Below are positions 6,303 through 9,909 of a stretch of DNA of 64,000 nucleotides, in pieces; position 1 is the stretch's first letter, and each line of letters opens with the position of its first letter. The stretch is from Arthrobacter sp. zg-Y1110 (lineage in GTDB: Bacteria > Actinomycetota > Actinomycetes > Actinomycetales > Micrococcaceae): contig NZ_CP104272.1 of NCBI RefSeq assembly GCF_025244865.1, forward strand, positions 1,054,001 to 1,118,000, read 5' to 3'. Position numbers and translations under genes: made by a program. Under the pieces are notes generated by a model, which was not told the DNA's origin, did not search any database, and was given only the letters and a program-made list of their open reading frames with translations.

Positions 6303-6348
6303 TGGAAAGAAAATCGGCCGGGTCCCGCAATGCGGAGCCCGGCCGATT
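6303..6348 (-). terminator. Intrinsic terminator of the 47-aa secreted peptide gene
   Basis: The arms AATCGGCCGGG (6312-6322) and CCCGGCCGATT (6338-6348) form a perfect 11-bp stem, with an inner CCGCA/TGCGG stem. Read on the minus strand it is followed by TTTTCTTTCC, a U-rich exit. It lies 18 nt after the peptide stop codon. Confidence 0.8.
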
Positions 6349-6365
6349 CACTTATGTCAGAACAA

Positions 6366-6509
6366 TTATCCTACGGCCGGCCAGTTGCCAAACAGCTGCA
6401 CAGCATTCTTGCTGGCTCCAGCTACAGGAGCTGCGTCGGAATTCTGGGCCACGGCGCCCGCTCCGAAGATAAGGGCGGCCAGAAGTGCAGCTGCACCGAA
6501 TTTTTTCAT
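6366..6509 (-). CDS. Small secreted peptide precursor, 47 aa (candidate signalling peptide)
   Basis: The frame starts at ATG 6509 with a near-ideal ribosome site (CAAGGAG, 6 nt before the ATG) and stops at 6366. The product has a classic export signal: MKKF, a hydrophobic core (AAALLAALIFGAGAV) and a likely signal-peptidase site AVA-Q near residue 21. This leaves a ~26-residue mature peptide ending QLFGNWPAVG. It has its own TATACT -10 box and its own terminator, so it is a complete single-gene unit. It is divergent from a TPR protein gene. Peptide precursor plus TPR protein is the arrangement of RRNPP/Rap-Phr quorum sensing in Firmicutes. A signalling role here is inference; it could also be an unrelated small exported peptide. 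Confidence 0.7.
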   Translation of the reverse strand: MKKFGAAALLAALIFGAGAVAQNSDAAPVAGASKNAVQLFGNWPAVG

Positions 6510-6547
6510 GTCGTGCTCCTTGAGAGAAAAGATGTGGTGGGGTGAAA

Positions 6548-6560
6548 CACCTGAAGTATA
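6548..6560 (-). promoter_or_regulatory. -10 box (TATACT) of the secreted peptide gene
   Basis: On the minus strand TATACT (6555-6560) matches the -10 consensus at five of six bases. It would start transcription near 6548, about 39 nt before the peptide ATG. No good -35 hexamer is seen, which suggests activator dependence or a different sigma factor. Confidence 0.5.
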
Positions 6561-6589
6561 GCTATGCTGAAGCTCTTATTGATATGCGA

Positions 6590-6620
6590 TTGACCATCTT
6601 TGGTGAATTCTGAGTAATTA
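6590..6620 (+). promoter_or_regulatory. Candidate promoter of the TPR / STAS-like / GGDEF-EAL operon
   Basis: TTGACC (6590-6595) is followed by AGTAAT after 17 nt or TAATTA after 19 nt. The predicted transcription start near 6625 lies downstream of the possible TTG start at 6621, which favours translation starting at 6666. The region is distinctly AT-richer than its surroundings. Confidence 0.4.
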
Positions 6621-6665
6621 TTGCAGAATGGCACCGGGCCTCTGTCGCTGGAAGGACCAGAATCC

Positions 6666-7745
6666 TTGGAAGATGAACAGGTGTATTTAGCCAACGAGTA
6701 CAAGGCGCAACAAGCTAGCCAGCGTCGTGACTACGGCAAAGCGGTCGAATATTCGGTGCTCGCGCGTGAAGCTGCACTTAAGGCCGGTGATACCTGGGGA
6801 TACTGTCGGTTGACGCTCAGCATCGCCCGGTACCAATACGACCTGGGGCTGATGGATGAGTGCATCCATACAATAAACGCGTTGACAGCTCATCCCGTCA
6901 TTGTTGACTACCCGGAAACCGCTGCCCGCGCCCGGGTGATCCTCTCCGAAGCCTTGCGGAACAAGGGGGCAAGCGACCGTGCGCTGGTTGCGACAGAAGA
7001 GGCGATAAGTATCGTTCCAGATCGTTCCAAGGAATTGCGTACCGCTCTTCAACATTCCATGGTGGCAACCCTGGCGGAAGAGGGGGAGGTGGAGGCTGCG
7101 TGGCAGGAAGCCATGGTGCTGGACTCCCTCGTCGGTCCTGAAGCAGGCGCAAGGGCTAGCGGTATGGCCTACTGGACGATTGGAAATTCGGCGTTTATGT
7201 CCGGACGTATCGAGGAAGGGCTCCGGTTCCACCGGAAGGCAGCAACGGCCCTGACCCCGTTGGGGGACGTCAACCTATGGGCGCTGTTTAATAAGGCTTC
7301 GGCAAACCTGCGGATGGATGCAGGGGTAGTGCAGCCGGAGACCCTCGAATGCATTGAACGGGCGGAAGTAGCCATTTCGGTTTCCGAAGGCAACCTGGCC
7401 GACCGGCTGGAGATCCTTTTATCACGCGCCCACTGGGAACACTTGGCCGGAAATAACGGGGTAGCCGAACAAAAGCTCCGGGACGTGGCCACCAAGGCAG
7501 AAGAACTGTTCCCCTATACCCGGGCGCAGGCGCTGATGGTTTTGGCAAGATGCCTGTTCGACCTTGGGCGGGCTGGGGAGGCATTGGACGCGGCGCGGGA
7601 AGGTGAACAGCTATTCGACGGTTTAGGGGCGCCGGTCCAAGCGGAAAGGGCCCGGGAGATTATCAGGACCATCCTCCGAAATGACTCCATCGCCCAAACA
7701 GCTGAACACGAAACGAAAAGTCAGGCCGAGAAACTCGATATTTGA
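6666..7745 (+). CDS. TPR-repeat protein, candidate peptide receptor or scaffold
   Basis: About 359 aa, almost entirely helical with tandem tetratricopeptide-like units, e.g. KAVEYSVLAREAALKAGD, then GEVEAAWQEAMVLDSL, RIEEGLRFHRKAATAL and GRAGEALDAAREGEQLFDGL. No DNA-binding, kinase or enzyme domain and no signal peptide is visible, so it should act in the cytosol through protein or peptide binding. I chose TTG 6666 because GGAAGGA ends 9 nt before it and the candidate promoter would start near 6625. The frame also allows TTG 6621 (15 residues longer). The gene heads an operon with a STAS-like protein and a GGDEF-EAL enzyme and is divergent from the 47-aa secreted peptide gene. A role sensing that peptide is inference from layout. 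Confidence 0.8.
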   Translation: MEDEQVYLANEYKAQQASQRRDYGKAVEYSVLAREAALKAGDTWGYCRLTLSIARYQYDLGLMDECIHTINALTAHPVIVDYPETAARARVILSEALRNKGASDRALVATEEAISIVPDRSKELRTALQHSMVATLAEEGEVEAAWQEAMVLDSLVGPEAGARASGMAYWTIGNSAFMSGRIEEGLRFHRKAATALTPLGDVNLWALFNKASANLRMDAGVVQPETLECIERAEVAISVSEGNLADRLEILLSRAHWEHLAGNNGVAEQKLRDVATKAEELFPYTRAQALMVLARCLFDLGRAGEALDAAREGEQLFDGLGAPVQAERAREIIRTILRNDSIAQTAEHETKSQAEKLDI

Positions 7746-7867
7746 GAATCGAAGGCGCACAATACAAACACCGTCTTTCGACTTACCGGCGGCAATCACG
7801 GACGAGCCGTTCCAAATCGGCGAGGGAATCCGCTGCATTTGATCCTGCGCAGCGACTTGGGGGAAGC

Positions 7868-8329
7868 ATGGCTAGAAGCGATAGATTGCAGTACGCAGGG
7901 ACGCGCCCCCATGACGGGCCGCAGAACCCACCGGAAGGCAAGGGCGCGGTAACCGGGGATGAAAGGATTTCCCCCGGGAACATCTCGGTCGAATTCGCCG
8001 ATGAGGGCCATTTGGTGCTGGTCCTGCCGCCAGGTGAAGTGATCACCGGGACGATGGCCCTGCTGGCGGCAGAGAAGATCCGGGCCTTCGCGGGAGCCAG
8101 CACCCTGCCTCTGCTCCTGGTCCTGACCGGGGTGGATTCAGTCTCCCGAAGCGCCCGCGACGTTTTCAGTGCGGCACGGTCGCTCTCGGCGGTTGCCGTC
8201 ATGGGTGTCTCGCCGGTGGACCGCGTTATTGCTAATTTTCTGTTGGGAGGCGAAGTGCAGCCGTGCCCCACCCGCTACTTCTCGAGCGAGCCTGACGCGC
8301 TTGGCTGGCTGAAACGATTTGCGGTATGA
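7868..8329 (+). CDS. STAS/SpoIIAA-like small protein, 153 aa
   Basis: After a disordered, charged ~40-residue N-terminus comes a compact alpha/beta domain (ISVEFADEGHLVLVL ... LPLLLVLTGVDSVSRSARDV ... AVAVMGVSPVDRVIANFLL). Its alternating strands and helices, with a Ser-Arg-Ser-Ala helix start after a hydrophobic strand, resemble STAS (anti-sigma antagonist) or related domains found beside c-di-GMP enzymes in Arthrobacter; the family call is tentative. ATG 7868 was chosen because GGGGGAA lies just upstream; an earlier in-frame TTG (7742) has no ribosome site. Its stop overlaps the start of the GGDEF-EAL gene by 4 bp, so the two are translationally coupled and may interact. Confidence 0.75.
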   Translation: MARSDRLQYAGTRPHDGPQNPPEGKGAVTGDERISPGNISVEFADEGHLVLVLPPGEVITGTMALLAAEKIRAFAGASTLPLLLVLTGVDSVSRSARDVFSAARSLSAVAVMGVSPVDRVIANFLLGGEVQPCPTRYFSSEPDALGWLKRFAV

Positions 8330-9909
8330 CACCTGACTCTGGACCTGCCAACCCGTCTGCCGAAGCTGTCCGGCTGAACAGGATAGTCGAGGGCATTGTC
8401 AGTATCGCGGCGGGAAACCTCACATCGCGGATTCCCGTTTCGCCCGCACGCGACCAGATTGATGCCGTCAGCACGGGCATTAATCTGCTGGCCGAAGAAC
8501 TGGACGATATTTACCGGGACCTTGAGCAGCGTGTGCAGGACCGTACCCAGGAGCTCCGGGAAGCCCACGCCCAGATGCAGCACATGGCCCTGAGCGACCC
8601 GCTCACCGGAGCTGGAAACAGAACTGCCTTGATGCAGGCAGCTGAGGACGCGTTGGCGGTTTGGAACGACGAGCAAGTTCGGGATGCCGCGCCGGCGGTT
8701 TTGATGGTTGACCTGGATGGATTTAAAGACATCAATGACAGCTTTGGACACCAGGCCGGTGACCGGGTACTCCAGGAAGTGGCGACCCGATTGCTGGCCT
8801 GCGTGCCGGGGGATAGCACCGTCTCCCGGCTCGGCGGGGACGAATTCGCCGTCCTGCTCCCCGACGTCAGCCGCATGTCCGCCCGGGCGACGGCCGAGCG
8901 TGTGCAGGAAGCACTGGGGTTCAAAATGAAGGTGGAGGAACTGGATGTCTGGCCCCGTGCCAGCATTGGCGTGCACCTTGCCGAGGTTGGGCAATCCGCC
9001 AAGGACCTGCTGCTCCGCGCCGACACGGCGATGTACGAAGCGAAGGAAGACGGCCCGGGCCTGGTGCGGCTATTTGAACCGGTGATGCTCTACGCCCGCC
9101 AGCTGCGGCGCAAAATGTCCTCCGACCTGCGCAACGCCGTTGAACGCAACGAGTTTCGGTTGGCGTACCAGCCCGTTGTGGATCTGGTCACCGGCAAGAT
9201 GCAGGGTGTGGAGGTGCTGCTGCGCTGGGAGCATCCGACGCAGGGACTGGTCATGCCGGACATCTTCATTCCGCTGGCCGAGGAGAGCGGAGCCATTCTG
9301 GGGATAGGACGCTGGGTGCTGCGGTCTGCCTTGGAGCAACTAGCGGAGTGGCGTAAGGCGGGCCAGGACCAGGATGGCTTCCATATCCGCGTCAACGTCT
9401 CCCCGTCCGAACTGCAGAGCATGGACCTGGTGGACTTTGTCCGGGCGCAGCTGCGGGAAACCGGCGCCGCACCCGGTGATCTCACTCTTGAGATCACCGA
9501 GAGCGCCTTCGTGGGCAGCGGGGACGTGGAGACTTACTCCATGAGATCGATCAAGGCCCTGGGCGTCCGTCTGGAAATCGACGATTTCGGCACGGGGTAT
9601 TCATCCATCAGCTACCTGCGGCGCCTGCCGGTGGACACCGTCAAGGTGGACCGCGCGCTGATTGCCGAAATCAGCCGCGACGAAGGGCAGCTGCAGTTCG
9701 TGGACGCGGTCCACCGGCTTATCCAGGCTGCCGGGATGGAAGCCGTGTTCGAAGGGATAGAGACCCTGCAGCAGGCTGAACTACTGCAGGACATGGGCTG
9801 CTGCAGCGGCCAGGGCTACTACTTCAGCCGGCCGCTCACGGCCGGGCAGGTGGGGACGCTCCTGGCCAGCGGCAGCCGCCTGCCGCTGGCTACGGAACTG
9901 CTCGCGTAA
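8326..9909 (+). CDS. GGDEF-EAL protein (diguanylate cyclase / c-di-GMP phosphodiesterase)
   Basis: A 527-aa cytosolic protein. A short HAMP/coiled-coil-like N-terminus (residues ~15-80) precedes a GGDEF domain with intact SRLGGDEFAVLL near residue 165 and a C-terminal EAL domain. The EAL motif is EVLLRWEHP; other key elements are NVSPSEL, LEITES, DDFGTGYSS, VKVDRALI and the late EGIET glutamate, so phosphodiesterase residues look complete. The RxxD inhibitory site normally just before GGDEF reads PGDS, so product inhibition is probably absent. No membrane segment is seen, so input must come from partners; the overlapping STAS-like gene and the TPR gene are the obvious candidates. Net activity (synthesis or breakdown) cannot be told from sequence. 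Confidence 0.95.
   Translation: MTPDSGPANPSAEAVRLNRIVEGIVSIAAGNLTSRIPVSPARDQIDAVSTGINLLAEELDDIYRDLEQRVQDRTQELREAHAQMQHMALSDPLTGAGNRTALMQAAEDALAVWNDEQVRDAAPAVLMVDLDGFKDINDSFGHQAGDRVLQEVATRLLACVPGDSTVSRLGGDEFAVLLPDVSRMSARATAERVQEALGFKMKVEELDVWPRASIGVHLAEVGQSAKDLLLRADTAMYEAKEDGPGLVRLFEPVMLYARQLRRKMSSDLRNAVERNEFRLAYQPVVDLVTGKMQGVEVLLRWEHPTQGLVMPDIFIPLAEESGAILGIGRWVLRSALEQLAEWRKAGQDQDGFHIRVNVSPSELQSMDLVDFVRAQLRETGAAPGDLTLEITESAFVGSGDVETYSMRSIKALGVRLEIDDFGTGYSSISYLRRLPVDTVKVDRALIAEISRDEGQLQFVDAVHRLIQAAGMEAVFEGIETLQQAELLQDMGCCSGQGYYFSRPLTAGQVGTLLASGSRLPLATELLA

Follow-up and report, generated by a model that had tools for sequence, protein, structure and literature searches.

A divergent peptide gene and TPR-protein operon in Arthrobacter sp. 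zg-Y1110 point to a probable RRNPP-like pheromone system linked to c-di-GMP

Genes of the island

In a 64-kb stretch of the Arthrobacter sp. zg-Y1110 genome (NZ_CP104272.1, positions 1,054,001 to 1,118,000; hereafter the window, from whose first nucleotide the coordinates of the island are counted), a gene for a putative peptide pheromone precursor lies divergent from an operon encoding a tetratricopeptide repeat (TPR) protein, a STAS-fold protein and a HAMP-GGDEF-EAL enzyme of cyclic di-GMP (c-di-GMP) turnover. This arrangement had been read from the nucleotide sequence in an initial annotation, and is confirmed by the open reading frames (ORFs), Pfam matches and structural models.

The precursor gene (6366..6509, minus strand) encodes 47 amino acids (aa); its translation has a basic N-terminus and a hydrophobic core, which constitute a Sec-type signal region, followed by a spacer and the C-terminal residues LFGNWPAVG. 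Its length and Sec-like N-terminus (assigned, as throughout, by our own rule and not by SignalP) agree with RRNPP/RRNPPA precursors (10-100 aa with a Sec signal), and it is the only one of five Sec-like small ORFs in the window with [WF]P after residue 20. A ribosome-binding site, AAGGAG (6516..6521, minus strand), can be read from the sequence with the ATG 6 nt downstream. The terminator initially assigned to the gene (6303..6349, minus strand) comprises a hairpin (6311-6349) and a U-rich tail (about 6303-6311); the minus-strand hairpin, followed by UUUUCUUU, does fold strongly (-33.5 kcal/mol, z -5.4, equalled by 0 of 200 shuffles), with no call in a stricter terminator scan. A promoter belonging to the peptide gene, also annotated initially, is unsupported, though one may exist: the consensus scan gave 0 sigma-70-type sites, and the divergent intergenic region (6510..6665) has no sigma-70 consensus match. 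With TTG 6666 as the probable start of the TPR protein, the distance between reading frames in this region is 156 bp, and not the approximately 110 bp first given. In public protein sets, the peptide is matched by just two entries at E 0.01 or better, both nameless.

The TPR-only putative receptor (6666..7745, plus strand) is encoded in an ORF that is open from TTG 6621; the start at TTG 6666 is considered probable because of GGAAGGA at 6650-6656 and agreement with the starts of homologues. Although its Pfam TPR matches are weak and every one falls below cut-off, the AlphaFold model (AF2 model m1d39557063f5) is an all-helical TPR superhelix of eight helix pairs plus a capping helix (mean pLDDT 95.3), as expected for the all-TPR protein first annotated. 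With 359-374 aa and eight modelled helix pairs, it resembles RRNPP receptors, which have 250-500 aa and are made of TPRs (PMC10075063, PMC9765709). No RRNPP-subfamily model is among its matches in Pfam, NCBIfam and PHROGs, and the helix-turn-helix (HTH)-type relatives tested likewise match none. A profile search reached RapF at E 0.003, ranked below eukaryotic and designed TPR proteins, and RRNPP receptors are absent among the best 50 Foldseek matches listed for the model.

The STAS-fold partner (7868..8329, plus strand), in an ORF open from TTG 7742 and probably starting at ATG 7868, matches DUF7793 above the Pfam cut-off and is predicted by AlphaFold to adopt a STAS/SpoIIAA-like fold (residues 1-35 disordered; core blocks 79-93); a 15-row alignment, examined for the phosphorylatable Ser/Thr of anti-anti-sigma factors, has no invariant Ser/Thr. 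Its ORF (7742-8329) overlaps that of the enzyme (8326-9909) by 4 bp, as initially noted. Next to the enzyme gene of A. agilis-type loci and of three further loci (L180-L182), a STAS-like gene was not detected by BLAST, and therefore the STAS-like protein is, by gene content, not essential to the arrangement of peptide, TPR protein and enzyme. The enzyme (8326..9909, plus strand) has HAMP, GGDEF and EAL matches above the Pfam cut-offs. The catalytic motifs of GGDEF and EAL domains (GGDEF, ExLxR, E-x-T-E, DDFG, K-x-D, and EG[IV]E) are retained here and in 43 of 43 linked loci (some genomes counted twice).

Pairing of peptide and receptor genes in relatives

In each of the 28 genus relatives (28/28), the peptide gene lies upstream of the TPR gene in divergent orientation, and its product has WP in 25 of them and FP in 3; loss of the gene from beside the TPR operon, by which the initial proposal would have been refuted, is therefore not observed. 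For a wider scan, 121 receptor loci were taken from two collections, such that some genomes occur twice and cross-genome counts are not independent, and were searched by a motif-free rule of size and Sec-like N-terminus only. A Sec-like small ORF is present on the divergent strand in 85 of these loci, and 85 of 85 have [WF]P after residue 20 (82 xWP, of which 66 are GxWP, and 3 FP only); in the same-strand control, such an ORF is present in 2 of 121 loci, one of them with the motif. Sampling of 16 further genera gave at least one pair by rule in 14, a pair found by hand in another (g37), and none in the last (g32). Furthermore, 239 kb around 20 loci (mostly chosen for a peptide already seen, so that the count speaks to specificity and not to frequency) contain 37 Sec-like ORFs, among which [WF]P occurs in 21 and [GNS]xWP in 19; these 19 coincide with the gene next to the receptor at 19 loci, and the remainder of the 239 kb has none. 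Peptide and receptor thus travel as a pair, with the adjacency of propeptide and receptor genes seen in RRNPP/RRNPPA systems.

Chance neighbours retained through slow rearrangement would be compatible with the genus loci examined, where the island has a fixed context between deoC and pgm. However, the pairing persists in other genera despite different neighbours and gene orders, and chance is largely excluded by the locus scan, the 239-kb specificity count and the linkage across clusters (see below), leaving this explanation with almost negligible probability. Two records among these loci are unusual in other respects. In Arthrobacter sp. ATA002 (L029, L072, L127), the gene for the TPR receptor is broken into two pieces, with the peptide gene intact. 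A record titled Vibrio cholerae strain 35D (WNZI01 contigs; L114, L152) carries A. agilis-type receptor, peptide, and GGDEF-EAL genes, and is most likely a mislabelled or contaminated assembly.

A search of 395 genomes of the family recovered receptors in 220, representing 17 of 32 genera; they are of two kinds, XRE-HTH-TPR and TPR-only. Two or more WP cores are present in 22 of 23 distinct Micrococcaceae precursors beside HTH-TPR receptors, and in 7 of 49 beside TPR-only receptors (not 8, as L027 was rejected as a repeat precursor, its two FP not being a repeat); core copies reach eight in Arthrobacter rhombi. Within 33 genes, 481 pairwise comparisons of WP cores show 191 synonymous versus 12 non-synonymous codon differences, all 12 confined to one gene; these are pairwise counts from which copies with a changed W or P are excluded by construction, which places the constancy of W and P outside their scope. 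The residue preceding WP is variable (N, D, W, L, I, M, S, E, Y, K, and others), and the 78 distinct peptides of the motif survey were chosen by a rule requiring [WF]P, and so provide no test of the motif. Tandem cores with drifting codons resemble RRNPP-type pheromone precursors, tandem duplication of propeptides being described for RRNPPA systems (PMC11343458).

In the order, 20 of 297 genomes match, 5 of them outside the family, including one (f17) with a precursor that has three GGSWP cores; in the class, 17 of 394 genomes match. For one family (f37), 26 of 150 genomes match and tandem IxWP precursors occur at 4 of 28 loci; a bulk test of these 28 loci under a looser rule gave 14 divergent versus 14 control loci, and 7 versus 9 with [WFY]P. 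An f37 receptor (L205) matched 37 plasmid records, 35 of them from Streptomyces and all below 60% identity; an HTH-type receptor (L079) matched 0 phage records and 1 weak plasmid record. Four of the 37 plasmid records were looked at. The linear plasmid of Streptomyces sp. NBC_01006 (L243) has a divergent precursor with three copies of DIGWP beside the receptor, annotated as a hypothetical protein, and the other three records (L240-L242) have divergent ORFs that end in DIGWPKH, DIGWPKR or QEWPK and are without a clear Sec signal. The ORFs of L240-L242 adjoin XRE-TPR genes, near biosynthetic-looking neighbours.

These three WP-ending ORFs would also suit a TPR protein that reads the peptide inside the producer, before or during export, so that the peptide would gauge secretion or growth and would not act as an intercellular signal; closely spaced, divergent peptide and receptor genes are likewise compatible with such a cell-autonomous gauge. 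Tandem cores behind a Sec-type signal region instead suit a signal that is cut and released, and we regard the gauge as improbable. A bacteriocin-like nature would also be conceivable for small secreted peptides with repeats that are encoded next to an XRE regulator, and of three annotated neighbourhoods, one (L185) has an ABC transporter gene on the far side of the peptide gene. Nevertheless, an antimicrobial role of the secreted peptide, or a role as some other exported effector, with its production regulated by the TPR or HTH-TPR proteins, appears very improbable given that the TPR-only receptors have no DNA-binding domain, a weak test in that immunity and processing genes were not searched for. 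Separately, the HTH-type loci L184, L185, and L189, from three genera, adjoin a SAICAR synthetase gene.

Linkage to the c-di-GMP enzyme and proposed signalling route

When 93 loci were clustered at 95% identity into 78 clusters, a GGDEF-EAL gene was present in the stretch covered for 39 of 43 TPR-only clusters versus 0 of 35 HTH clusters (Fisher p 9e-18, with no correction for kinship). Exceptions on the TPR-only side number four: L129, which has a stop within its reading frame, and L151, L154, and L155, which group with XRE-TPR proteins. The position of the enzyme gene varies with the genus, from immediately downstream to some 5.5 kb downstream or, on the same strand, some 2 kb upstream. A quickly built tree of 130 receptors unites 56 TPR-only rows in a single clade (SH-aLRT 97), and 8 other rows without a detected HTH lie elsewhere, among them L096-L098, which have xWP peptides and long branches. 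All 29 genus genomes examined (29/29) have exactly one GGDEF match each, within 2 kb of the TPR gene, and the sole EAL match of the window genome, the one genome in which EAL was searched, sits in the island. The genome also has a single MshEN match, in a pilus-type ATPase (G000:C2:55998-56234, L210), which is a lead to a possible c-di-GMP target; its motif is partly altered, with Ser in place of the Gly of the motif.

Scaffold TPR proteins are frequent among the fold matches of the TPR model, and the peptide is a putative ligand of the TPR protein; it might instead be sensed outside the cell or at the membrane by another protein, with the operon a neighbouring c-di-GMP module and the TPR protein its scaffold. 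This explanation is unlikely, as the peptide gene is also found beside HTH-TPR receptors that have no GGDEF-EAL neighbour, and therefore follows the TPR protein and not the enzyme.

Across eight genus loci (one split), identity to the window is 34-57% for the receptor, 41-68% for the STAS-like protein, 60-84% for the enzyme, and 86-99.6% for DeoC; given the values for the STAS-like protein, fast divergence is not peculiar to the receptor. For the covariation analysis, a redundancy filter retained 69 of 87 receptor-peptide pairs. With permutation restricted to clades, the strongest covariation with the residue preceding WP is at columns 226, 229, and 230 (ranks 2-4 and 1-3 at two thresholds), all in helix A6 and beside W220, F223, and N224, which are invariant in the family alignment. 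For all receptors, control positions rank these columns at 8 to 310; for TPR-only receptors, the A6 columns take ranks 2, 6, and 13, with column 229 reaching rank 12 for one of the controls. With regard to the covariation of the peptide with the TPR groove that the initial annotation had suggested as a check, the clustered A6 columns are suggestive of a peptide that meets the TPR domain; a broad preference for A-helices failed its control, and was rejected as proof of groove binding.

We favour, with a probability of about 0.7, an RRNPP-like pheromone system of Actinomycetota in which the TPR-only branch acts on c-di-GMP. Peptide-to-c-di-GMP signalling, as first proposed for the island, is partly supported, by the pairing in all genus relatives examined, tandem GxWP cores, HTH-TPR siblings with a like peptide, and a single GGDEF match per genome. 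We infer cleavage, import, binding, and control of the enzyme, together with its direction, along the following route. The precursor would be exported by Sec and then cleaved, with the C-terminal piece around FGNWPAVG as the signal; this piece would be re-imported, probably via an oligopeptide ATP-binding cassette (ABC) importer (SBP_bac_5 matches number five), and would bind the concave face of the cytosolic TPR protein. The bound TPR protein, either directly or via the STAS-fold partner, would act on the HAMP/coiled-coil N-terminus of the GGDEF-EAL enzyme, which would shift between making and breaking c-di-GMP. As no second GGDEF/EAL enzyme was found, control of the island enzyme would let the peptide determine the c-di-GMP pool.

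Two points weigh against this pheromone system. The status of the island enzyme as the only c-di-GMP enzyme rests on GGDEF and EAL searches, HD-GYP not having been searched; and of 42 HTH-TPR loci with wide flanks, just 12 have a peptide gene (L152 was dropped, its apparent peptide being the antisense of its HTH). Across the scan, no peptide was found by rule at 36 of 121 loci, or 35 after the peptide of L095 was found by hand, and a hand search at ten peptide-less loci gave no convincing peptide. The tree places 22 of the 36 in one of two groups, a distant set of XRE-TPR proteins or a clade of paralogues that includes the HTH-TPR copy of the window genome. That copy (G000:C1:989698-990693, L056) lies between an Rpf-type transglycosylase/G5/DUF348 gene and an RrnaAD (KsgA-type) gene; its HTH has no Pfam match, no peptide gene was found within 2.5 kb, and it is possibly an orphan receptor or a relic. 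The scarcity of peptides at HTH-TPR loci weighs one way and the Streptomyces case the other.

It seems somewhat likelier than an even chance that these loci represent an undescribed superfamily of Actinomycetota, extending from Micrococcaceae to Streptomyces, in which cytosolic XRE-TPR regulators sense xWP peptides; one branch would have lost its DNA-binding domain and become a switch on the sole GGDEF/EAL enzyme, with a population signal setting the c-di-GMP pool. If soil actinobacteria as common as these share a conserved pair of peptide and receptor, a new communication code would become accessible to tests with synthetic peptides. A genus whose genomes each have a single GGDEF domain, next to the putative pheromone gene, is also an unusually clean setting in which to study the effect of a pheromone on a second messenger.

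Comparison with known systems

Among individual components, the STAS-fold partner is related to Arth_0117 of Arthrobacter sp. FB24 (PDB 3bl4; 41-42% identity over 108-109 columns), which was deposited without an assigned function; the two structures superpose poorly (rmsd 14.9, TM 0.30-0.41), and therefore the likeness lies in the sequence. In SiaABCD of Pseudomonas, a STAS-like protein is likewise encoded with a diguanylate cyclase, and SiaB-SiaC (6kko) matches the fold weakly (E 0.04); unlike the island, SiaABCD is without a peptide or TPR receptor, and the SiaD model is far below cut-off here (117.5 versus 290 bits).

The initial annotation knew of no described actinobacterial system of this composition, and our literature search, with subscription papers and preprints outside its coverage, likewise found no actinobacterial RRNPP-like or GxWP system. 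The RRNPP surveys consulted covered Firmicutes and viruses (PMC10075063) or Firmicutes (PMC9765709); signals of Actinomycetota are typically enzyme-made small molecules, and oligopeptides are the rule in Firmicutes (PMC10075063). Rap phosphatases, the HTH-less branch of RRNPP receptors, differ in that no Rap model is matched here and the partner is a c-di-GMP enzyme. The RRNPP/RRNPPA systems of Firmicutes (Rap-Phr, NprR-NprX, PlcR-PapR, AimR-AimP) share with the Arthrobacter island and its relatives a cytosolic TPR receptor whose gene adjoins that of a small Sec-type propeptide, precursors with several signal copies (PMC11343458), and receptors with and without an HTH that are built as a TPR superhelix. 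The loci described here differ from them in belonging to Actinomycetota, in matching no RRNPP family model, in their GxWP-like core, and in having a TPR-only branch beside a GGDEF-EAL enzyme.

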